Assembly (NCBI GenBank): GCA_015075445.1 | Contig: JABTUJ010000023.1 | Location: forward strand, 1-64,000 | Direction: 5' to 3' | DNA: 64,000 bases | Origin: Verrucomicrobiales bacterium | GTDB taxonomy: Bacteria > Verrucomicrobiota > Verrucomicrobiia > Limisphaerales > J093 | Shown: one piece after another, positions 3,701-60,670 of the stretch | Layout: each line of letters opens with the position of its first letter | How positions within the stretch are numbered: position 1 is the stretch's first letter | Program-made: the position numbers and the translations under genes | The notes under the pieces: model-generated | What the model was told of the DNA's origin: nothing | Databases searched by the model: none | Seen by the model: the letters and a program-made list of their open reading frames with translations, nothing else

Positions 3701-3870
3701 CGTGGAGGGCTATTCGGCGCGAAGCGCGGGCGGGCTTCAACTGTTTTCTGGCGCCGGTCTCTTGGCGTGGGCCGCGGCCCACGGAGGGGCCCGACGGTGC
3801 GGAGTTCGCGCCAGCGTCTGGAGTGCGTGCGGTTGACCGCCGCTTTGCGGAACGGGAGGGGGGACAGGGG

Positions 3871-3920
3871 GCGAACGAAAAGCGCCGCTGGAAGTCGCCG
3901 CACTCCAAACGCTTCGCGCC
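3871..3920. repeat. dispersed AGCGCCGCTGGAAG repeat, single copy
   Basis: This stretch carries GAACGAAAAGCGCCGCTGG, then GTCGCCGCACTCCAAACGCT, the same element found in the 79-bp units at 1-275 and in the inverted pair at 22090-22201. It lies just downstream of the topoisomerase stop codon, in a 223-base gap (3701-3923) with no convincing gene. Confidence 0.8.
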
Positions 3921-3923
3921 TCA

Positions 3924-6107
3924 CTAAACCAACAACAGCTTCGTGGTGGCGGCTTCCGCGTCCCAACCCCGCGTGGGTTTGCTGGTGATCGAGGCAACGT
4001 CTTTGATCGAGAGCTGACGGCCCCGCGCCTTCGCCCCCTTCACCTCGACCTGTGACGGGTCGCAGGTCTGCTGGTTGATCTTCTGGTACGGCGCGGGCTT
4101 GTAGCGGACGTACAGCAGCGGCGGGGTGTCGGCCTCGAGGAACACCACCTTGGCCTTCTCCGGCGTCAGGCTGTATTCCTTGTTCAGGATCGTGCCCCCG
4201 AACGTGAACCGCTTGAGATAACTCGCGTCCCGCGTGCTGTAGCAGAGCGTGAAAACCCGGTCGCGTTCGGGCAGCCCGGCGTGGAGCAGGTCGGGGCCCA
4301 CGAACAGCTTCTCGGGCAGCTCGATGACCTTGTAGCGGCCGTCGCGGAAGATGAGCAGGAGGCGGTCGAACTTGGTGCAGTCGGTGCGGAACTCCTCCCC
4401 GGCGACCTTGTAGCCGAGGTAACCGCTGGCCCGGTCGTAGGCGACCTTGAACGCCTTGAAGGCCGCCTCGCGGACATCGATTTCGTCGTGCCGACTGCTC
4501 TTGGTGAGGCGGGGGTACTGGGGTTCGTAGGTGGCGAGGAGGTGTTCGAGGTGGGCGATGGCGTAGGGCACGAGCCGCTTGAGGTGCTTGCGGGTTTGCG
4601 CGAGCTCCGCCTTGACCTGGTCGAGCTCGTCGCGGTGCTTGCGGATGTCGAAAAGCGAGATGCGCCGGATGCGGACCTGCAGGAGCCGCTCGACGTCCGG
4701 GTCGGTCAGCGGGCGGACGAGTTCCCCGGTGAAGGGCTGGAACCCGCTGACGACCGCCGCAGCGACGGCCTCGCCGGTCTTGCAGCTCTCGATGCGCTTG
4801 TAGATGCGTTCCTCGATGAAGATGCGTTCGAGGGTGCGGTAGTGGAGCTCGTCCTCGAGCTGGCGGGCCTTGAGTTCAAGCTCGCGCTTCAGCAGGGCGA
4901 CGAGCTGGGCCGTGTTCTCGCGGAGCACCTCGCTCACCGTCAGCTCCACGGGTCGATGGTCGCGGATGACAATGATGCGACTCGACAGAGTCACCTCGCA
5001 GTCCGTGAACGCGTAGAGGGCATCCACCAGCTTGGCCGCCTCGACGCCCGGGGGGCACTTGACCTCGATCTCGACTTCGTCGGAGGTGTAGTCGTGGACG
5101 GCCTTGACCTTCAGCTTGCCCTTGCGCACGGCGTCCTCGATGGAGGCCGTCAGCGACTCGGTGGTGGTGTTCGGCGGCAGCTCCTTGATGACCACGGTCT
5201 GGTCGTCCTTGACCTTGATCCGGGCCCGGACCTGCACGCTGCCGCGGCCGTCCTGGTAACCGCGGGCGTCCATCAGGCCGCCGGTGGGGAAGTCGGGCAG
5301 GCACTTGAAGGGCTGGTTCTTGAGGATGGCGATCTGGGCGGCGAGCAGCTCGGGGAAGTTGTGGGGCAGGATGCGGGCGGCGAGCCCCACTGCGATGCCC
5401 TCGGTGCCGAGCATGAGGACGAGCGGCAGCTTGCAGGGCAGGGTGACGGGTTCCTGATTGCGGCCGTCGTAGCTGGGAACGACCTCGGTGATCTCGTCGT
5501 GGAAGAGCTCGGTGCGGGCGAGCTCGGTCAGCCGGGCCTCGATATACCGCGGTGCCGCGGGGGGATCGCCGGTGTAGAGGTTGCCGAAGTTCCCCTGGCC
5601 CTCGATGAGGTACCGCTTGTTGGCGAGCACGACGAGCGCTTCCCCGATCGCGGCGTCCCCGTGCGGATGGTACTTCATCGTGTCGCCGACGACGTTTGCC
5701 ACCTTCGTGAAGCGGCCGTCGTCGCTGCGATGCATCGCCCAGAGGATGCGGCGCTGCACCGGCTTCAGGCCGTCGGCGAGGTTGGGGATGGCGCGGTCCC
5801 GGATGACGTACGACGCGTAGTCGAGGAAACTCCGGTCCACGCGGCGATGGAGCGGGGCTTCGGCCTGCTTGGGGTCGAAGGGGCGTGACACGGCCACCGC
5901 CGCCGCGGACTCCGCGATGACATGCGCCGCACCCCCGTTCGCCGTCTCACCCGCGGCGGGAACGTTGTCCGACCCGGGGGTCGGGACGCTGCCACCGCCG
6001 GACTGCGGGCGTGCCACCGTCGGCGGCGCGGCGGCCCCGTTGGGGTCCGGCAGCCCGTTCATCCGCAAGGCCAACTGGCCGGGATCTGTCTTTCGCTTCT
6101 TGCCCAT
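3924..6107 (-). CDS. parC: DNA topoisomerase (type IIA) subunit A, ParC/GyrA family
   Basis: A 727-residue breakage-reunion subunit that would pair with a ParE/GyrB-type ATPase to pass DNA through a double-strand break. The winged-helix region has GLKPVQRRILWAM near residues 113-125, and the catalytic tyrosine is Tyr188 in PRYIEARL. The tower and coiled-coil regions follow (about 450-560). The C-terminal part lacks an obvious GyrA-box QRRGGKG motif, which favours ParC over GyrA, although the split is not certain. The ATG at 6105-6107 (MGKKRKTDPGQLALRMN) was preferred to an upstream extension of 107 low-complexity residues. Residues 20-75 are a disordered leader. No partner subunit gene is in the window. 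Confidence 0.9.
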   Translation of the reverse strand: MGKKRKTDPGQLALRMNGLPDPNGAAAPPTVARPQSGGGSVPTPGSDNVPAAGETANGGAAHVIAESAAAVAVSRPFDPKQAEAPLHRRVDRSFLDYASYVIRDRAIPNLADGLKPVQRRILWAMHRSDDGRFTKVANVVGDTMKYHPHGDAAIGEALVVLANKRYLIEGQGNFGNLYTGDPPAAPRYIEARLTELARTELFHDEITEVVPSYDGRNQEPVTLPCKLPLVLMLGTEGIAVGLAARILPHNFPELLAAQIAILKNQPFKCLPDFPTGGLMDARGYQDGRGSVQVRARIKVKDDQTVVIKELPPNTTTESLTASIEDAVRKGKLKVKAVHDYTSDEVEIEVKCPPGVEAAKLVDALYAFTDCEVTLSSRIIVIRDHRPVELTVSEVLRENTAQLVALLKRELELKARQLEDELHYRTLERIFIEERIYKRIESCKTGEAVAAAVVSGFQPFTGELVRPLTDPDVERLLQVRIRRISLFDIRKHRDELDQVKAELAQTRKHLKRLVPYAIAHLEHLLATYEPQYPRLTKSSRHDEIDVREAAFKAFKVAYDRASGYLGYKVAGEEFRTDCTKFDRLLLIFRDGRYKVIELPEKLFVGPDLLHAGLPERDRVFTLCYSTRDASYLKRFTFGGTILNKEYSLTPEKAKVVFLEADTPPLLYVRYKPAPYQKINQQTCDPSQVEVKGAKARGRQLSIKDVASITSKPTRGWDAEAATTKLLLV

Positions 6108-8928: not shown

Positions 8929-9005
8929 CAATCCCCGTTGTTCGTAATCAGCGGAGAAACCCCGCGTCCCGAATCCTCCGCGGATTCCGAACATCGGGAA
9001 TTGGG
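8929..9005. repeat. solitary copy of the ATGTTCGCAATCGGCGGAG hairpin element
   Basis: The left arm contains GTTGTTCGTAATCAGCGGAG and the right arm CTCCGCGGATTCCGAACATC; they are near-complementary, giving a long hairpin. The same element forms the array at 18655-19325. Confidence 0.85.
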
Positions 9006-18654: not shown

Positions 18655-19325
18655 TTCCCCATCCCCTGTGTTCGCGATCGGCGGAGAGCGCCCTGGATCA
18701 TGGTTTCCAGTTTGTCGGGGAGACAGGCTGAGGATCCCGGGCTCTCTCCCAGTCCCTATGTTTCGCGATCGGTGGAAACCCTTCCCTGGATCCTCCGCAG
18801 ATTTCGAACATCGGGGATTAGGCTGAGGGAATCCCCGGGCTCTCCCCCATCCCCTATGTTCGCAATCGGTGGAGAAGCCCCTTCCCTAGATCCTCCGCCA
18901 GTTTCCAGACATCGGGGACTAGACTGAGGATCCCAGGCTCTCCCAAATCCCTATGATATTCGCAATCGGCGGAGGCCCTTCCCTGGTCCTCCATGGATTT
19001 GGACATCCGGGGTAGACTTGAGGAATCTCCGCCTCCCCGTAATCCCTGGTTCGCCAATCGGCGGAGAGCCCCTCCCCTGGATCCTCCGCAGATTTCGAAC
19101 ATCGGGAATTGGGCTGAGGGGATCTCCGCCTCCCCGTAATCCCCTATGTTCGCAATCGGCGGAGAACCCCCCCGCCCCCGGGTCCTCCGCAGATTTCGAA
19201 CATCGGGGATTGGGGCGAAGGGGATCTGCGGCCTCCCCGAATCCCCTATGTTCGCAATCGGCGGAGAAACACCCTTCCACTGAATCCTCCGCAGATTCCG
19301 AACATCGGGAATTGGGCCGAGGGGA
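18655..19325. repeat. array of about seven hairpin elements
   Basis: Seven units of about 95-100 bases start near 18659, 18753, 18850, 18945, 19045, 19141 and 19244. A typical unit has a left arm with TATGTTCGCAATCGGCGGAG, a short variable loop, and a right arm with CTCCGCAGATTTCGAACATC, so it folds on itself. The first unit's right arm is most degraded. The stretch 18641-19516 contains no gene. A single copy lies at 8929-9005. Confidence 0.93.
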
Positions 19326-30585: not shown

Positions 30586-30603
30586 CAGCAGTTCTCATTT
30601 TGG
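30586..30603. repeat. left terminal inverted repeat of the insertion sequence
   Basis: CAGCAGTTCTCATTTTGG is the exact reverse complement of 33124-33141. Confidence 0.97.
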
Positions 30604-30726
30604 GAGCTGAGGGCTGAGACCGACAAGGCGGCGGCGGGGGTGACGGAGACTTCCGGCGGCAGGGCCTGAAAGATTTTTGCACTTTTTGCGGGACTCACCT
30701 TCCCCTTCTCGCTATACCTCCCGCGG

Positions 30727-31596
30727 ATGGCGAGCGAGTGGATCGTGCAGGGCCGCACCCTGAGTGCGGAGGACCTGGCCCAGATTCGGGCCTGGCGGGC
30801 CGCCCATCCCACCTGGCACCGGACCCGCCTGGCGCGCGAACTCTGTGCCCGGTGGGGGTGGCGCAACGGGGTGGGGCAGCTCAAGGACATGGCCGCCCGC
30901 TCGCTGCTGCTCAAACTGGAAGCCCGCGGCTGGATCACGTTGCCCCCCCGCCAGGGCCCCTCGGTCAACGGCCGCCGCAACCATCGGGCCCTCGCGCCGG
31001 CGGGGGCGGCGGTGGGGATCCAGGCCTCCCTGGCCAGCTTGCACCCGCTGCACCTGAGGCGGGTCGCTCCGGGCACGGCGGAGGCCCGGGAGTTCGGGGC
31101 CCTGCTCCAGGAGCACCATTACCTGGGTCACCGCAACTGTGTGGGCGAGAACCTCCAGTACCTGGTGCGCGATCGCCAGGATCGCCCGCTGGCGTGCGCG
31201 CTGTTTGGTTCAGCCGCCTGGCAGTGCCAGGCCCGCGACGGGTTCATCGGCTGGAGCCCGCCCGCCCGGCGCCGCCACCTGGGGCTGATCACCAACAACA
31301 CCCGCTTCCTGATCCTGCGCGGGGTGCGGGTGCCGCATCTGGCCAGCCACCTGCTGGGCTGCCTGACCCGCCGCCTGAGCGCCGACTGGCAGGCGCGCTA
31401 CGGGCATCCGATCCACCTGGTGGAAACCTTCGTCGAGCCCGAACGCTTTGCCGGCACCAGTTACCAGGCCGCCGGCTGGATCCGGGTCGGCGCCACCACC
31501 GGCCGCGGTCGCAACGGGGCCGCCCCCCAGCGCCCGATCAAGGAGGTCTGGCTGTGCCCGCTCGGCGCGGACTTCCGGGAGCGCCTCGGCGCATGA
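30727..31596 (+). CDS. DruA-family (DUF4338) protein in an insertion sequence
   Basis: A 289-residue protein with the DUF4338/DruA hallmarks in order: HHYLGHRNCVGENLQYLV (about 136-153), LACALFGSAAWQCQARDGFI, GLITNNTRFLILRGVRVPHL, LVETFVEPERFAGTSYQAAG and GATTGRGRNG. DruA is the signature protein of type I Druantia antiphage systems, but none of DruB-DruE is nearby. Here the gene overlaps the transposase start and lies inside the inverted repeats, so it travels with the element. A DNA-related accessory role in transposition is an inference. Confidence 0.88.
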   Translation: MASEWIVQGRTLSAEDLAQIRAWRAAHPTWHRTRLARELCARWGWRNGVGQLKDMAARSLLLKLEARGWITLPPRQGPSVNGRRNHRALAPAGAAVGIQASLASLHPLHLRRVAPGTAEAREFGALLQEHHYLGHRNCVGENLQYLVRDRQDRPLACALFGSAAWQCQARDGFIGWSPPARRRHLGLITNNTRFLILRGVRVPHLASHLLGCLTRRLSADWQARYGHPIHLVETFVEPERFAGTSYQAAGWIRVGATTGRGRNGAAPQRPIKEVWLCPLGADFRERLGA

Positions 31597-32906
31597 GCCG
31601 CCTGGCTTTCGCCACCCTGGTGGACGGCTTGCGGCGCACCCTGGCCGGGTTGACGGACCGGCGCAGGGGCCGCAACCGCTCCTATGCGATGGCGGACTTC
31701 GGCCTGGCCGCCTTCGCCGTCTTCTTCACCCAATCGCCCTCCTTTCTGGCCCACCAGAAAGCGATGCAGCGGGCCCGGGGGGTCAACAACGCCCTGAGTC
31801 TCTTTGGCATCCAGAGCTTCCCCTCCGACAACCAGATCCGCGGCATGCTCGATCCCGTGTCGCCGGCCGCGCTCTTCCCGGTCTACGACCAGATCTACGA
31901 GGCGCTCGGCGAGCAGGGCCTTCTCCGGCACTTCCGGGGGTTCCACGACTCCACCCTCCTGGCGCTGGACGGCACGTGGTACTACAGCTCCCAGAAGATC
32001 CACTGCCCGTGTTGTTCCTCGCTCCAGCACGCCAACGGCCAGACCACCTTCTATCACAGCGCCCTGACCCCGGTCCTCGTCGCCCCGGGGCGCGCGGAGG
32101 TCATTGCCTTGCGGCCTGAGTTCATCACCCCGCAGGACGGCCACACCAAGCAGGATTGCGAGTTGGCCGCGGCCAAACGCTGGCTGGAGCAGAACGCCGC
32201 CCGCTATGGCCAGGGCCCCGTCACTCTCTTGGGCGACGATCTCTACGCCCACCAACCCTTCTGCCGGCGCGCCCTCCTCCACGGCTTCCACTTTATCTTC
32301 ACCTGCCAGCCCGACTCCCATACCACCCTCTACCGCTGGGTGAACCTGCTCCAGAGGCCGGAGCTGGGAACCCTCTGCCTCCGCGTCAAGGTCGGCGGCC
32401 AGTGGCACACTTACACCTACCGCTGGGCCAACCGGGTCCCGCTGGCCGACGGGGAGGACGCCCTGCGCGTCAACTGGTGTGAACTCACCGTGACCGATCC
32501 GCAGGGTCAGGTCCTCTACCATAACGCCTGGATCACCGACTGGCCGCTGAGCGAGTCGAACGTGGCAGCCGTCGTCGCCTCGGGCCGCGCCCGTTGGAAG
32601 ATCGAGAACGAGAACAACAACACCCTCAAGACCAAGGGCTATCATCTGGAGCACAACTTCGGTCACGGCCACAAACACCTCGCCGCCTTCCTGCTGGCCT
32701 TGAACCTCCTGGCCTTCCTCTTCCACACCGTCCTGGGTTTCACCGACGAGCACTACCGCCTCATCCGGGCCACGCTGCCCTCGCGCCAGACCTTCTTCGA
32801 CGATCTGCGAGCCCTCACCCGCTACCTGCACTTCCCCAGTTGGCAGGCCCTCCTGCGGTTCATGATGCGCGGACTGGAGATCGGCCCCTACGCCAAGCCA
32901 ACCTGA
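31593..32906 (+). CDS. DDE transposase of the druA-bearing insertion sequence
   Basis: A 437-residue transposase. Likely catalytic residues are Asp126 in LALDGTWYY, Asp215 or Asp216 in LLGDDLYAHQ and Glu338 in RARWKIENENNNTLK; the last is followed by GYHLEHNFGHGHKHLA and a hydrophobic helix, as in IS4/IS5-superfamily transposases. A Cys cluster, HCPCCSS, follows the first Asp. The ATG at 31593 overlaps the druA stop as ATGA. An upstream extension in the same frame is only the shadow of druA. Confidence 0.92.
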   Translation: MSRLAFATLVDGLRRTLAGLTDRRRGRNRSYAMADFGLAAFAVFFTQSPSFLAHQKAMQRARGVNNALSLFGIQSFPSDNQIRGMLDPVSPAALFPVYDQIYEALGEQGLLRHFRGFHDSTLLALDGTWYYSSQKIHCPCCSSLQHANGQTTFYHSALTPVLVAPGRAEVIALRPEFITPQDGHTKQDCELAAAKRWLEQNAARYGQGPVTLLGDDLYAHQPFCRRALLHGFHFIFTCQPDSHTTLYRWVNLLQRPELGTLCLRVKVGGQWHTYTYRWANRVPLADGEDALRVNWCELTVTDPQGQVLYHNAWITDWPLSESNVAAVVASGRARWKIENENNNTLKTKGYHLEHNFGHGHKHLAAFLLALNLLAFLFHTVLGFTDEHYRLIRATLPSRQTFFDDLRALTRYLHFPSWQALLRFMMRGLEIGPYAKPT

Positions 32907-33123
32907 GCCAACCGGCCCGCCCAGGCGAGGTGTGCCCACACCCGGCGATCGGGGGCAGGGAGGGTCCCAAGAACCTCCCCGAGGCCGCCGGACCGATCCC
33001 CCCAGGCTTCCAGCCGCGACTCCGGTTGCGCCGTACGCCGCGGTAGCCCTGCCAACACCATCGCCCCTCGCCCTCGCCCTCGCCCAGTTGCCTTCCCAAC
33101 CCCGGCGTGCTGAGCCGTTCATG

Positions 33124-33141
33124 CCAAAATGAGAACTGCTG
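33124..33141. repeat. right terminal inverted repeat of the insertion sequence
   Basis: CCAAAATGAGAACTGCTG is the exact reverse complement of 30586-30603. Confidence 0.97.
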
Positions 33142-35318: not shown

Positions 35319-35377
35319 CGGCCGAGAGTAGCGGAGAGCCGGTTAGCCTTCAACCGGGGAGCCCTGCAGCAGGGCGA

Positions 35378-36088
35378 CTATCTCTTGAGGATCCTCTCCT
35401 TGACCTCGATGTAGCGGCTCAGCACCTGTTTCAGGGCGAAGCAGTAGGGGGTGAGCTCGATCTTGGCGCCCGCATCGAGGGCGGCTTCCGCGCTTTCGAG
35501 GCCCTTCAGACACCGGCGCGCCTGTTTGAGTGACAGAGTGCGGGTCTTCCCCAGCACCGCGTCGATCTCGCTGCGCCGAAAGGCCGTGAGCCGTTTGTGA
35601 TCAAGCTTCAGCCTCCCGATCGTAGTGGCCGCCGCCCGATCCGCCGCGTTCGCCGGGCGGATCTCGCCGCGGTCATTGAACACGAACCGGTCTTCGCAGC
35701 CAGGGCTCAACGGGGAGACGAACATCCCGGCCTCCGCCGGGCTGGGCCAGTTCCCCTTGGCATGGGCACCAAAGTCGCCCGCTGGGCCGTTGGGTTCCGG
35801 CCAGCAAGCGACCAGATTGTCGTAAGCCACATCCTGTCCGCGCTCGCAGTAACACTGAGGCGTCAGGTGCTCGACATGCGCCGTGTCGTTTCCAACCCGC
35901 CGGCCCGTGTAGGCACACAGTCCTCCTTGTTCGGTGAGCAGTGACTCCAGAAGGAGGCTCGCCCGGGACCGCGACTGCCGAAGGGCAGCGTAGCCGAAAT
36001 TGACACCCTCGCTGGCGGGCGCGGCCTGGCCGGCGGCACGCCACTGACACAGCTCGGGTGGTTCGCTGCGCTTCTCAATCCTCCTCAT
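35378..36088 (-). CDS. ptuB: HNH endonuclease, TIGR02646/PtuB-like (Septu component)
   Basis: A 236-residue protein opening with MRRIEKRSEPPEL, the typical start of TIGR02646 proteins. The nuclease core is LCAYTGRRV (58 region), HVEHLTPQ (71-78), YDNLVACWPEPN (89-100, Asn91) and FGAHAKGNW (106-114). This corresponds to the His-Glu-His, Asn and Lys-Gly-Asn positions of the family's HNH fold, although the classic CxxC zinc pair is not present. Its start overlaps the ATPase gene's end by 14 bases. With that ATPase it forms the PtuA-PtuB pair of Septu; family identification is by motif and gene order. Confidence 0.83.
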   Translation of the reverse strand: MRRIEKRSEPPELCQWRAAGQAAPASEGVNFGYAALRQSRSRASLLLESLLTEQGGLCAYTGRRVGNDTAHVEHLTPQCYCERGQDVAYDNLVACWPEPNGPAGDFGAHAKGNWPSPAEAGMFVSPLSPGCEDRFVFNDRGEIRPANAADRAAATTIGRLKLDHKRLTAFRRSEIDAVLGKTRTLSLKQARRCLKGLESAEAALDAGAKIELTPYCFALKQVLSRYIEVKERILKR

Positions 36089-37358
36089 GCGCCCCGGCTT
36101 CCAGATTGCGGATGCTCGCCTCGAGTCGGACGACTTCGCCTTCCTCGCTGCCGACACTCTCCCGCAGGCGGTGCAACCGGTGCTTCGCTCCGTCGAGATC
36201 GCCTGCTTCGAGGGCATCTTCTACAGCGTGGATATGCCTCGCGGCCTCACCGCTACGCTCCGCCGCGTCCATGACATGCTCCAGGATCCAGTTGGAGTCC
36301 GCGCCATAGGCCACCACCGGTGTCTGAGTCCCCTCTGAGTTCAACACATGCACCCGATCGCGAGTTACCTCGCCGATGATTTGGGGAGAGTGGGTCGTGC
36401 AGAAGAACTGGATCTTGGGGAACGTGCGCCGCAGATCGGTGACAATCCGGCGCTGCCATTTCGGGTGCAGGTGAAGATCCAGTTCGTCGATCAGCACCAC
36501 CCCCGGGGTGCCTGGCACCGCCCGCTCGCCCAGGTTCGGATTCAGCAACGCGGCCTTGATGGCGATGTCCCCCACCATCGCGACCATGTTCCGTTGCCCA
36601 TCGCTGAGCTGATCAAACGCATGGATCCCCTGGTCCGCGAATTCGACCAGCACCTGTTCTTGCTTGGCCGAGAACCAGATTCGCTTGCCGTGCTCGAGAC
36701 AACCCAGCACGGCCTCCTTGACGGCCGTGCTGACCGCTGGCTCGCTCCCTTCCTGGAACGCGATCCATTCCTGCCGGCTGATCCATTTCATGAAGTCCGC
36801 CGGGCTGCACCGTGGATCGACGCTGTTGCGATAGCCGTCCAGGCGCGATGGCCGGTTGCGCCGATCCTTCAGCTCGCTCCGGATGTCGCGGGGAATGTCC
36901 CAAAGCCGCCCGGTGCCGTAATAGGAGATCAGCGGCAAGACCACGGCGGCGTCCCGGCCGTCCCGAATCGCTTGCGCCTGCGCCTCCGCGATGTCGCGGA
37001 TTCCCGAAGCGTCCTTCGTAGTCGTCCGCCCTTTGCGCCCGCGCAGGGCACGTTCCCAGGCCAGGCTCTCGCCATTCACTTGTCCCCAGGCTCGAACCAC
37101 CGTCTGCTCCACCTCCTCGAATCGGAAATCGCCATGGGCGGTTCGGGGCTGCACTCGCACGTCCGCGGCCACCAAATGACGTTTGTCGAAGCCCCGAATG
37201 CCCAGGAACCAAGACCCCGCCGCCACCGCCAGCGCCTCGAGCAAGGACGTCTTGCCCGATCCGTTATCCCCTACCATGAGGTTGAAATCGGACGGAAATC
37301 TGAACTCCGCACGCTCGAAGCAGCGGAAGCCAGTCAGTTCGAGCTTCTGGATGTGCAT
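36075..37358 (-). CDS. ptuA: AAA/ABC-type ATPase, PtuA-like (Septu component)
   Basis: A 427-residue ATPase of the RecF/OLD-like AAA group. Walker A is GDNGSGKT (30-37), the ABC-type signature is LSDGQRN (about 260), Walker B is VVLIDELDLHLHP (about 300), and the switch histidine lies in FFCTTHSPQIIGE. In Septu and in retron Ec78 such an ATPase holds the HNH nuclease PtuB. No reverse transcriptase is adjacent. I chose the ATG at 37356-37358 (MHIQKLELTGFRCFE), the usual first strand. It is shorter than several described PtuA proteins. Confidence 0.83.
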   Translation of the reverse strand: MHIQKLELTGFRCFERAEFRFPSDFNLMVGDNGSGKTSLLEALAVAAGSWFLGIRGFDKRHLVAADVRVQPRTAHGDFRFEEVEQTVVRAWGQVNGESLAWERALRGRKGRTTTKDASGIRDIAEAQAQAIRDGRDAAVVLPLISYYGTGRLWDIPRDIRSELKDRRNRPSRLDGYRNSVDPRCSPADFMKWISRQEWIAFQEGSEPAVSTAVKEAVLGCLEHGKRIWFSAKQEQVLVEFADQGIHAFDQLSDGQRNMVAMVGDIAIKAALLNPNLGERAVPGTPGVVLIDELDLHLHPKWQRRIVTDLRRTFPKIQFFCTTHSPQIIGEVTRDRVHVLNSEGTQTPVVAYGADSNWILEHVMDAAERSGEAARHIHAVEDALEAGDLDGAKHRLHRLRESVGSEEGEVVRLEASIRNLEAGAHEED

Positions 37359-37537
37359 ATGAGGTCGAGCCGTTCCCAGTCCGCCCTGCGGTGATCCCAC
37401 ACTCGCGGCTCGGACGGCTTGGTGAACAGTTTGCTTGCGGTGCACGCCAAGCGCAATCCCCGACCATCGCGCCTGTCAGTGGTCCGACCGGGAGTCGGGC
37501 AAGAGAGGGTACCTTGCCTCGCCAGCGCTTCCCGGGA

Positions 37538-40500
37538 TCACTTCGGCTGCTGCAGGTAGGCCAGCAGATCGGCTACGTCCTGGTGGCTCAGACCCGCCTC
37601 GAGGTTCTCCGGCATCAACGACAGCCCGCTCGAGCTGAAGGAGCGGATCCGTGACCGGGCGATGGACAAGTCCACCCCGCCCGCCGCCCGCAACACCACC
37701 AGCGCTTCCGTCTCGCTGGTCACAATCCCCGAGTACACCTCGTCCTCGTCATCTTCGATCGTGTAGTTCAGGTACTCCGTGTTCACCGCCGCGTTCGGAT
37801 CGAAGAGGTCCGAAAGCAGCGTCTCGGCCCCCTTGCGCGAGATCTCCGTCAGGTCCGGACCCACCGCGAAGCCGAGCGGGCCCATCGTGTGGCACGTGGC
37901 ACAGAGGTTTTCGAAATGCACCTTGCCCCGGTCCGGGTCGCCCGTCAGCCGCACCGCCGGTTGAAGCTGCACGAGCACCTCCGCCCGCGTCACCACGCCG
38001 GCATCGCTGAACAGCGCCTCGGCCCGCGCCCGAATCGCGGCATCGGAGGAGCGCAGCAGGCGGCGGCGGCGCTCCAGGTCGAGGTTCAGTTGCCCCATCT
38101 GCAGGCGGCCTTGCTCCAGCGCCGCCAGGAGCGCGTCGTGGTTCCACGAACGGTTGATGAAGTAGTCGCTCGCCTCGGCCCGCGCCTCGCGGCTCAGACG
38201 CGACCAGGCCCCGATCAGATGCGCCGCCACCGCGGGGTCGCGTTCCTGCACCAATTGACGCAGGGCCGCCTGCTGCAACTCCCGGGGCTCGCGGAAATCG
38301 AGCAACCCAAACAACAGCTCGCGCCGGTCCGGGAATGGCCCGAAGCGCAGGAGGTCCAGGTTCGCCAACCTCTCCGGCAGCGCCGCGTCGCGATTGGCCA
38401 CCACCTGGGCAGCCTCTCCCAGCACCGCTGCCTGTTCCGCGTCGGACCGCAAGCCCAGGTGTTGGCGCAGTTCCCACAGGGCGGCGAGCCGGGCGATCGG
38501 CGCCGACCGGCGCAACGTCGTCAGCGCCGCCTCGAGGCGGTTCCGTGCCGCGTCCGGGAGCTCCAGCGCCCGTTCCCGACTGAGACCGCTGTTCAGCCCT
38601 TGCAGCACCGTGAGCAACTCTTCCGCCGAAGCGGTCCGATCCCGCGCCACCGCGTCCAGCGCCTCCGTCAACTCGACCCCGAGCCGGCGGGCGCCGAGCA
38701 GTTCGCTGAGTTCGGCCAGGAAGGCCAGGCGCGCGGGCGTGGGTTCGCCCGCCGCGGTCCGCATCAGACCGCGGGTTCCCAGCACCGCCTGGAGGCTCAG
38801 CCACGGGGCGCGTGCCGTGGTGGTCAGCAGTGCGAATCGACTCCATTCGTTGGTGCCGTCGCGCTCGAGCAGGGTGAGCAGGGACTTCAGGACGCGGTCG
38901 CGCCGCGCGGGTTCCTCCGCCCAGGCCACGGTGCCGAGGGTGAGCGCCACCTGCATGCGCACGCGAGCCTCCGGATCGTCGGTGAGCGCCAGGACGGCGG
39001 CGAAGCGGGCGGGCGCGGCGGCCAGGCCGGGCTCGGCGAGGACGAGCGCGTTCTCCCGCACACCGGGATGAGGATCCCGCAAGGCGCGCAGGATCAGCGG
39101 CTCGGTCAACGCGCCCTGGGCATGGGGGAGCGGCACGGCGGGAGTGAGGCCGTGGAGGGTCCAGAGAGCGTGGAGCCGGGCTTGCGGGAACGTCGCGTCG
39201 CGCGCGAGCCGTTCGAGCAGCGGCACGCAACGGGGATCGTTCCACCACACGAGCAGGCGTTGGGCGGTGTCGCGCCACCAGCGGTTCCGGTGCTCGAGTT
39301 GCGCCACCACGAACGCGAGGTCCTCCCGCGGAAACCGGGGGGTGACCCGGGGCAGTCCAGCCTGGGGCGTGACGCGGTAGATGCGGCCCTGATTGGTGCC
39401 GGCGTGCAGGTCCAGATGCCGTTCGAGCTCGTCCGGGATCCACTCGGGATGCTCGATCACCGCCCGGTAGAAATCCACGATGTACAGCGCGCCATCCGGC
39501 CCCACCCGCATGTTCACCGGCCGGCTGTGTCGATCGGCCGAGGCCAGGAACTCGACCTTCGGCCGGCCGCGGGCCGCGAGGAAGCTTGGGCCATCCGGCC
39601 GCAGCACGTCGCGGTGGATCAGGTTCATCACCGAGTCCGCCACGAACAGGTTGCCGTTGAATTCCTCCGGGAACGCGCCGCCCCCGTAAAACGTGATGCC
39701 GCAGGAACAGGAGAAGAACCCGGACTGCTCCGGGTGATTCAGCCGCGCCTCCTGCTTGCCGATCGGGTAGGCGCGGTCGAGTCCGCCGGTCTTGTGGTCC
39801 GAGATGTCCGGGTTGCCGCGGGGCCGGAGCTGCGGGTGGGGATCGAGATAGCGCAGGGGGAAAACGAGGTGATTGACGTGGTGCAGGTTGTGGGTGGTGA
39901 AGATCCGGCCCCAGTCGTCGAGGGCCACGTTGAAGCCGGTGGTGGTGCGGCCAAAGAACTCGAGGCGCTGCCCGGGCAGGTCGAACTTGACGTCCCGATG
40001 CAGCATCGGGTGCTTTTCGGCCGGGCGGTCGGGCCAGAACAACGTGCCCGAGTTCCCGCCGTTGCCGGCGTACACCCAGTTGTCCAGCCCGTAGATGAGG
40101 CCATTGAAGTTGTGCTGCGAGTTGCCCACGGCGAAGCCGGACAGGAGCACCTGGCGCACATCCGCCCGGCCGTCCCCGTCGGTGTCCTGCACGAACAACA
40201 AGTCCGGCGGCGCCGCCACCAGCAGGCCACCGCGATAGGGCAAGATCGCGTCCGCATACTGGAACCGGTCCGCGAACACCTGGCGCCGGTCGTACACGCC
40301 GTCGCCGTCGGTGTCCTCGATCCGCACGAGCTTCCCCGGAAACTCGGCCTCGAGTTCCGACGCAAACGGGTAGCCGCCCATCTCGATCACGTACGCGTGG
40401 CCGTGCTCGTCGAACTGGAGGTCCACCGGATCCCGAACCACCGGTTCCACCGCCACCCGCTCGATCCGGAAGGCCGGATGCAGTTCGATTTCGTCCACCC

Positions 40501-40597
40501 CCGTCGGCAGGTTGCCGCCGGCGGGCAGCGGTTGGGCCAGCGTAATCAACCCGCCGCCCAACACCGCGGCTCTGTGCAAGCAAACAAGGAAGGTCAT
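37538..40597 (-). CDS. PVC-type heme-binding CxxCH protein with propeller and HEAT-like regions
   Basis: A 1019-residue exported protein. After a signal-like start (MTFLVCLHRAAVLGGGLITL) comes a glucose-dehydrogenase-like propeller with VDLQFDEHGHAYVIEMGGY, LVRIEDTDGDGVYDRRQVFA and MRVGPDGALYIVDFYRAVIE. A helical, HEAT-like middle follows (about 430-880). A c-type cytochrome module with CATCHTMGPLGFAVGPDLTE lies near residue 905, and Met in SLMPENLEAGL may be the sixth ligand. This layout is the PVC-type membrane-bound dehydrogenase family, presumed to oxidise a sugar or alcohol; the substrate is unknown. The ATG at 40595-40597 follows a tandem-repeat block. Confidence 0.9.
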   Translation of the reverse strand: MTFLVCLHRAAVLGGGLITLAQPLPAGGNLPTGVDEIELHPAFRIERVAVEPVVRDPVDLQFDEHGHAYVIEMGGYPFASELEAEFPGKLVRIEDTDGDGVYDRRQVFADRFQYADAILPYRGGLLVAAPPDLLFVQDTDGDGRADVRQVLLSGFAVGNSQHNFNGLIYGLDNWVYAGNGGNSGTLFWPDRPAEKHPMLHRDVKFDLPGQRLEFFGRTTTGFNVALDDWGRIFTTHNLHHVNHLVFPLRYLDPHPQLRPRGNPDISDHKTGGLDRAYPIGKQEARLNHPEQSGFFSCSCGITFYGGGAFPEEFNGNLFVADSVMNLIHRDVLRPDGPSFLAARGRPKVEFLASADRHSRPVNMRVGPDGALYIVDFYRAVIEHPEWIPDELERHLDLHAGTNQGRIYRVTPQAGLPRVTPRFPREDLAFVVAQLEHRNRWWRDTAQRLLVWWNDPRCVPLLERLARDATFPQARLHALWTLHGLTPAVPLPHAQGALTEPLILRALRDPHPGVRENALVLAEPGLAAAPARFAAVLALTDDPEARVRMQVALTLGTVAWAEEPARRDRVLKSLLTLLERDGTNEWSRFALLTTTARAPWLSLQAVLGTRGLMRTAAGEPTPARLAFLAELSELLGARRLGVELTEALDAVARDRTASAEELLTVLQGLNSGLSRERALELPDAARNRLEAALTTLRRSAPIARLAALWELRQHLGLRSDAEQAAVLGEAAQVVANRDAALPERLANLDLLRFGPFPDRRELLFGLLDFREPRELQQAALRQLVQERDPAVAAHLIGAWSRLSREARAEASDYFINRSWNHDALLAALEQGRLQMGQLNLDLERRRRLLRSSDAAIRARAEALFSDAGVVTRAEVLVQLQPAVRLTGDPDRGKVHFENLCATCHTMGPLGFAVGPDLTEISRKGAETLLSDLFDPNAAVNTEYLNYTIEDDEDEVYSGIVTSETEALVVLRAAGGVDLSIARSRIRSFSSSGLSLMPENLEAGLSHQDVADLLAYLQQPK

Positions 40598-40659
40598 GCG
40601 AGAACCAAGGTTGCCCGTGTCCGACTGAATCCGTTGCGCACCCCGCCAGGAATCCTGAG

Positions 40660-40830
40660 CCCGGTTCCACCCATTGGGATCATGCAGCTTCTTCTGGTGG
40701 TCGTCGTAGTTTGCACTGATTACCGAGGGGCCCGGTTCCGCCCATTGGGATCTTGGAGCTTCTTTTGGTGGTCGTCGTAGTTTGCACTGATTACCGAGGG
40801 GCCCGGTTCCGCCCATTGGAATCCTGGAGC
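40660..40830. repeat. 71-bp tandem repeat, two full copies and part of a third
   Basis: Units start with CCCGGTTCC at 40660, 40731 and 40802, a constant 71-base spacing. Each contains GGTGGTCGTCGTAGTTTGCA and ends TTACCGAGGGG. The block lies upstream of the PVC-cytochrome start. Confidence 0.93.
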
Positions 40831-40835
40831 TTCCC

Positions 40836-40884
40836 TTGAGCTTTGAACTTTGAGCTTTGAGCTTTGAACCTTGAGCTTCGAGCT
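40836..40884. repeat. seven heptamers (TTGARCT type)
   Basis: Seven consecutive units, TTGAGCT, TTGAACT, TTGAGCT, TTGAGCT, TTGAACC, TTGAGCT and TCGAGCT, follow the core GGAGCTTCCC. They lie just downstream of the ispG stop. The same core and heptamers occur at 258-291. Confidence 0.88.
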
Positions 40885-60466: not shown

Positions 60467-60670
60467 CTCCCCACTTTCGCGTCGGTTAGCGGCTTTCGCG
60501 GGCAGCGGGTCATGCGCGCCGCGCCCCACCGGAATGGAGAGGTTCGTGGAGAAGCCACCTGTTCCTTTCGGACCTGCTCGGGGACCATGAACCACGGAGG
60601 GTGCAGGCTGGAAGCCCGCACCACCGGTTCCTGGAGCGCCTCCCCCAGCCCCATCCCCGATGTTCGTATA

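Follow-up and report, generated by a model that had tools for sequence, protein, structure and literature searches.

A free-standing type I Septu pair in a verrucomicrobial genome, with a PtuA tail that may travel together with PtuB

Is a pair of overlapping ATPase and nuclease genes in an environmental Verrucomicrobiota genome a genuine and intact Septu antiphage system, and is it as unusual as it appeared when first read as a Septu-like module? The pair lies in a 64,000-nucleotide stretch of contig JABTUJ010000023.1 from a Verrucomicrobiales bacterium (GCA_015075445.1), referred to below as the window. Both reading frames, their coordinates (35378-37358) and the motifs quoted for them were found exactly as the initial annotation gave them: ptuA (36075..37358, minus strand) encodes an ABC/RecF-type ATPase of 427 aa with intact ATPase motifs (Walker A GDNGSGKTS, LSDGQRN, DELDLHLHP and a switch TTHSP), and ptuB (35378..36088, minus strand) an HNH nuclease of 236 aa that contains both HVEHLTPQ and FGAHAKGNW. 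The assignment to Septu was borne out by the profile check that had been proposed along with it, with strong matches of PtuA to the PADLOC PtuA1 model (PDLC00278, 4.7e-127, residues 1-421 and thus nearly full length) and of PtuB to PtuB1 (PDLC00346, 3e-53). Solved E. coli Septu proteins are the top PDB matches for both, namely 8ee4 for PtuA (3.9e-48) and 8ee7 as the closest solved sequence to PtuB in a profile search, and the TIGR02646 model is passed narrowly by PtuB, at 53.5 bits for a cut-off of 52.15. The predicted structure of PtuA is weak (pLDDT 63). The AlphaFold2 model of PtuB (pLDDT 88.5) has the fold seen in the solved Septu and retron complexes, its best structural match being E. 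coli Septu PtuB (8eea_G; Z 20.2, rmsd 3.2, 210 residues), with retron Ec78 PtuB nearly level at Z 19.3. Two outcomes had been named that would speak against a Septu, best matches to non-defence families and loss of the HNH metal site; the best matches are to Septu, and the metal site appears to be retained, as judged by conserved residues and the overall fold. We therefore consider it very probable that the locus is a free-standing type I Septu (PADLOC PtuA1/PtuB1) with the abortive mechanism proposed below.

The two genes overlap by 14 bp (36075..36088, minus strand). Because the same 14-bp overlap is found in five verrucomicrobial relatives (L038-L041 and L043) and on a Ketogulonicigenium plasmid (L054), translational coupling is likely, and chance can, in our reading, be excluded as the origin of the pair by the profile scores together with this conserved overlap. 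The start of ptuA was placed at the ATG at 37358, as in the relatives; a GTG further upstream, at 37445, which would give a PtuA of 456 aa, has no support for this reason. No other PADLOC-recognised gene was found among the tested neighbours, and the surroundings do not constitute a classical defence island.

The ATPase had initially been described as short, which is true only against the 542-552 aa of the retron PtuA chains in the PDB: free-standing PtuA relatives measure about 414-460 aa, and the best PADLOC PtuA1 models mostly have 421-443 positions. Alignments with these retron chains begin only around residue 54-69, so that the difference in length comes down to a retron-specific N-terminal extension of about 60 residues, which is absent from free-standing PtuA including that of E. 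coli Septu. This bears directly on the alternative that the two genes supply the effector component of a retron I-A system, with the reverse transcriptase and the msDNA gene either located elsewhere or lost. Both proteins do score against NCBIfam models of retron Ec78, PtuA with 227 bits and PtuB with 60.4 bits, and reverse transcriptases are present on other contigs of the same genome. These scores, however, fall far below the equivalog cut-offs of 500 and 150, the window PtuA lacks the retron extension just as E. coli Septu PtuA does, and no RVT_1 match was found on the window's own contig, C17, in line with the original remark that no reverse transcriptase lies nearby, so that no retron operon is seen. 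In addition, the genomes of two relatives (L038 and L041) have no RVT_1 match in assemblies that may be incomplete. Taken together, it seems to us very improbable that the pair is such a retron effector.

A second doubt concerns the nuclease. A typical PtuB has four cysteines, arranged as CxxC ... C ... C, which we take to form a structural zinc site. The initial annotation was right in stating that the window nuclease lacks the CxxC pair (it reads C58-x-x-T61), and another cysteine of the cluster is gone as well: C58 and C95 remain, while the second and fourth cysteines are T61 and G107. The loss of these two positions could suggest that the pair has decayed, with the zinc cysteines gone by degeneration and the nuclease dead. 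The same loss is, however, conserved both in E. coli Septu PtuB and in relatives with 60-70% identity, the reading frames are open, H74 and N91 are kept, and the PtuB model has high confidence near the active site, all of which makes decay a highly unlikely explanation. Among the 59 PtuBs that we compared, the second cysteine is lost in 13, where the fourth is absent too (L051 being ambiguous in the alignment); these include five close relatives, Ketogulonicigenium, Bacteroides and Phocaeicola plasmid copies, and E. coli Septu, whose solved PtuB has lost the same cysteine positions (CCYS...FGG), whereas a retron Ec78-type PtuB (L099) retains its cysteines. An AU test of a single origin of all zinc-less PtuBs gave p 0.077. 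H74 and N91, on the other hand, are present in 59 of 59, and correspond by motif to H75 and N91 of Septu EcB88, mutation of which abolished defence (PMC13096335). Since it is shared with relatives and with E. coli Septu, and since H74 and N91 are universal, the missing CxxC is, judging from this comparison, a normal variant, and marks neither an odd nor a dead PtuB. The suggestion of an unusual branch could thus not be upheld: the length of PtuA is normal, and PtuBs without the CxxC also occur in E. coli Septu, in Alphaproteobacteria and in Bacteroidota. Rather, the window Septu is real, apparently intact and of ordinary architecture, and extends the known Septu systems by one, from an environmental member of the Verrucomicrobiota. 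As a side observation, a Phocaeicola plasmid carries a natural single-gene PtuA-PtuB fusion of 616 aa (L100 1648-3498); nearly the same proteins are encoded by two genes on a Bacteroides plasmid (L064).

By homology with studied relatives, PtuA would be expected to oligomerise, and the resulting complex to restrain PtuB until infection disturbs it. Once released, PtuB would cut an essential nucleic acid, either host tRNA or DNA, and this cleavage would stop phage production, that is, act as abortive infection. Assembly, activation and antiphage function of the window pair are all read across from those relatives, and sequence alone does not decide between tRNA and DNA as the substrate. In studied systems, tRNA-Tyr is the target both of Septu EcB88, which acts abortively and cleaves it in its variable loop, and of retron Eco7, whose PtuAB degrades it, with variable-loop cleavage also reported; the Septu of E. 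coli ATCC 25922 is reported to cut nicked DNA (PMC13096335, PMC11555353).

How did the pair come to reside in this genome? Its close relatives, with PtuA 71-79% identical, are found in a few verrucomicrobial MAGs; of the 320 genomes in the window's order, 4 have a PtuB of the window kind, the window's own genome counted, and all the genus and family mates listed lack it. Moreover, a 5.5-kb block (35360..40868) comprising the Septu and a DUF7133 gene is absent from a syntenic genome of the same genus, G685: by blastn, the flanks at the corresponding locus (L103) are about 90% identical to the window, and 35360-40868 is missing, with about 318 bp in its place. As the pair is sporadic and the block is missing in G685, horizontal gain is probable and transfer the simplest reading, a deletion in G685 being a conceivable alternative for the indel. 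The Septu has a GC content of 64.4% versus 67.8% for the window, and its GC3 is below that of most neighbouring genes. When the flanks of the relatives were compared with the window by tblastx, only linked spurious matches were obtained, and single-protein scans of viral contigs, with the window PtuB and also with an E. coli PtuB fragment, found no relatives.

The same genome holds a second, divergent and complete Septu (L002, at G000 C14:74198; PtuA1 9.9e-128, PtuB1 5.9e-77) and a third, truncated one, consisting of a truncated PtuA with a PtuB-like ORF (L003, at G000 C61:5922). Elsewhere in the window, an insertion sequence at 30586-33141 is bounded by terminal inverted repeats of 18 bp (CAGCAGTTCTCATTTTGG) and has duplicated a 9-bp target, GCGGGCCGG, of which G685 has only one copy. 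The element contains a gene with a DruA domain (PF14236, 3.2e-27), the product of which would be a passenger or partner of the element, and a second ORF that is presumably the transposase and has no Pfam match; five more near-identical full copies are found in the genome. A family of short, interspersed, REP-like palindromic repeats (CATCCCCGATGTTCG...) lies at window positions 8931-8958, 18657-18876, 19078-19268 and 60649-60668, and also at L103 8380-8500, the G685 junction without the Septu block.

The relatives raise the further question of whether PtuA and PtuB have been inherited as a unit. In L043, a MAG labelled Akkermansia, PtuB falls inside the window clade and PtuA groups with L051 (100/100); in L054, from Ketogulonicigenium, PtuB branches as the sister of the window clade (99/97) and PtuA groups with L052. 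Alternatives to these groupings are rejected by AU tests with p-values (6.6e-5, 6.8e-5, 2e-4 and 5e-3) that are optimistic, the groups having been picked after the trees were seen. The break appears to fall inside PtuA, since the L043 sequence is similar to L051 as far as about residue 320 and to the window lineage beyond it. In a tree of the PtuA body, L043 and L051 are joined at 100/100 and placing L043 in the window clade is rejected (p 2e-6), whereas in a tree of the PtuA tail L043 lies in the window clade (98/96) and its pairing with L051 is disfavoured (p 0.02); the tail result for L054 is weak (78/18; p 0.13). Mantel tests of PtuB distances over 47 pairs gave r 0.80 (partial 0.70) for the tail versus r 0.60 (partial 0.25) for the body, and 0.41-0.62 for any 80-residue stretch of the body. 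The mosaic identity profile, the separate trees and the Mantel tests thus point to a C-terminal PtuA segment of roughly residues 330-427 (36075..36371, minus strand) as a module inherited with PtuB. These last ~90 residues and PtuB seem to have travelled together and to have been joined to an unrelated PtuA body once clearly, in L043, and probably a second time, in L054. L043 might conceivably be an assembly chimera, but L054, with a similar pattern, is present in four plasmid records.

One explanation is an exchangeable Septu cassette made up of PtuB and the ~90 residues at the C-terminus of PtuA, in which the tail docks and fixes PtuB while the body, with the ATPase and a presumed sensor, is swapped independently; we advance this tentatively, at slightly less than an even chance. 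The tail may accordingly be the docking place of PtuB, a role that may already be known, and if the proposal is true, sensors and nucleases are reshuffled in nature. Co-inheritance could equally reflect physical linkage, with homologous recombination breaking at the conserved Walker B/switch stretch and carrying along whatever follows it, so that the tail needs no docking role, and this too we hold possible at a little under even. The presumed breakpoint indeed falls within the best-conserved region of PtuA (residues 281-320, 72% identity both to L043 and to L051) and adjoins the ptuB gene. Nothing decisive stands against linkage: the correlation between tail and PtuB persists when the window clade is left out (partial r 0.61 for the tail vs 0.24 for the body), yet linkage predicts the same, and the present data fit both explanations and do not separate them. 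The mosaic relatives offer a testable idea of sensor and nuclease recombination in Septu and retron I-A effectors, and of the possible seat of PtuB specificity.

Compared with known systems, the window pair is closest in organisation to E. coli Septu (8ee4, 8ee7, 8eea), likewise a free-standing pair with a PtuA that lacks the N-terminal extension and a PtuB with an incomplete zinc cluster, the PtuB fold being common over 210 residues. It differs in that PtuB identity in the structural alignment is a mere 20% or so, PtuA has 465 aa in E. coli and 427 aa in the window, and the activity of the window pair is predicted from sequence. The retron I-A systems Ec78/Eco7 and Ec83 (9kjx, 9vh1, 9e8z) share a homologous ATPase and a TIGR02646-type HNH nuclease in identical order, but their PtuA is longer, with an N-terminal extension, a reverse transcriptase lies alongside, and the Ec78-type PtuB has all four cysteines where the window PtuB has two. 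The PtuAB of Ketogulonicigenium vulgare plasmids (L054), finally, has the sister PtuB, which is 42% identical and shares the CAYTG...YGAH motifs, and the same overlap of its genes, but its PtuA body belongs to another lineage, and its genes (3743-5687) lie between those for the specificity subunit and the restriction subunit of a type I restriction-modification operon.
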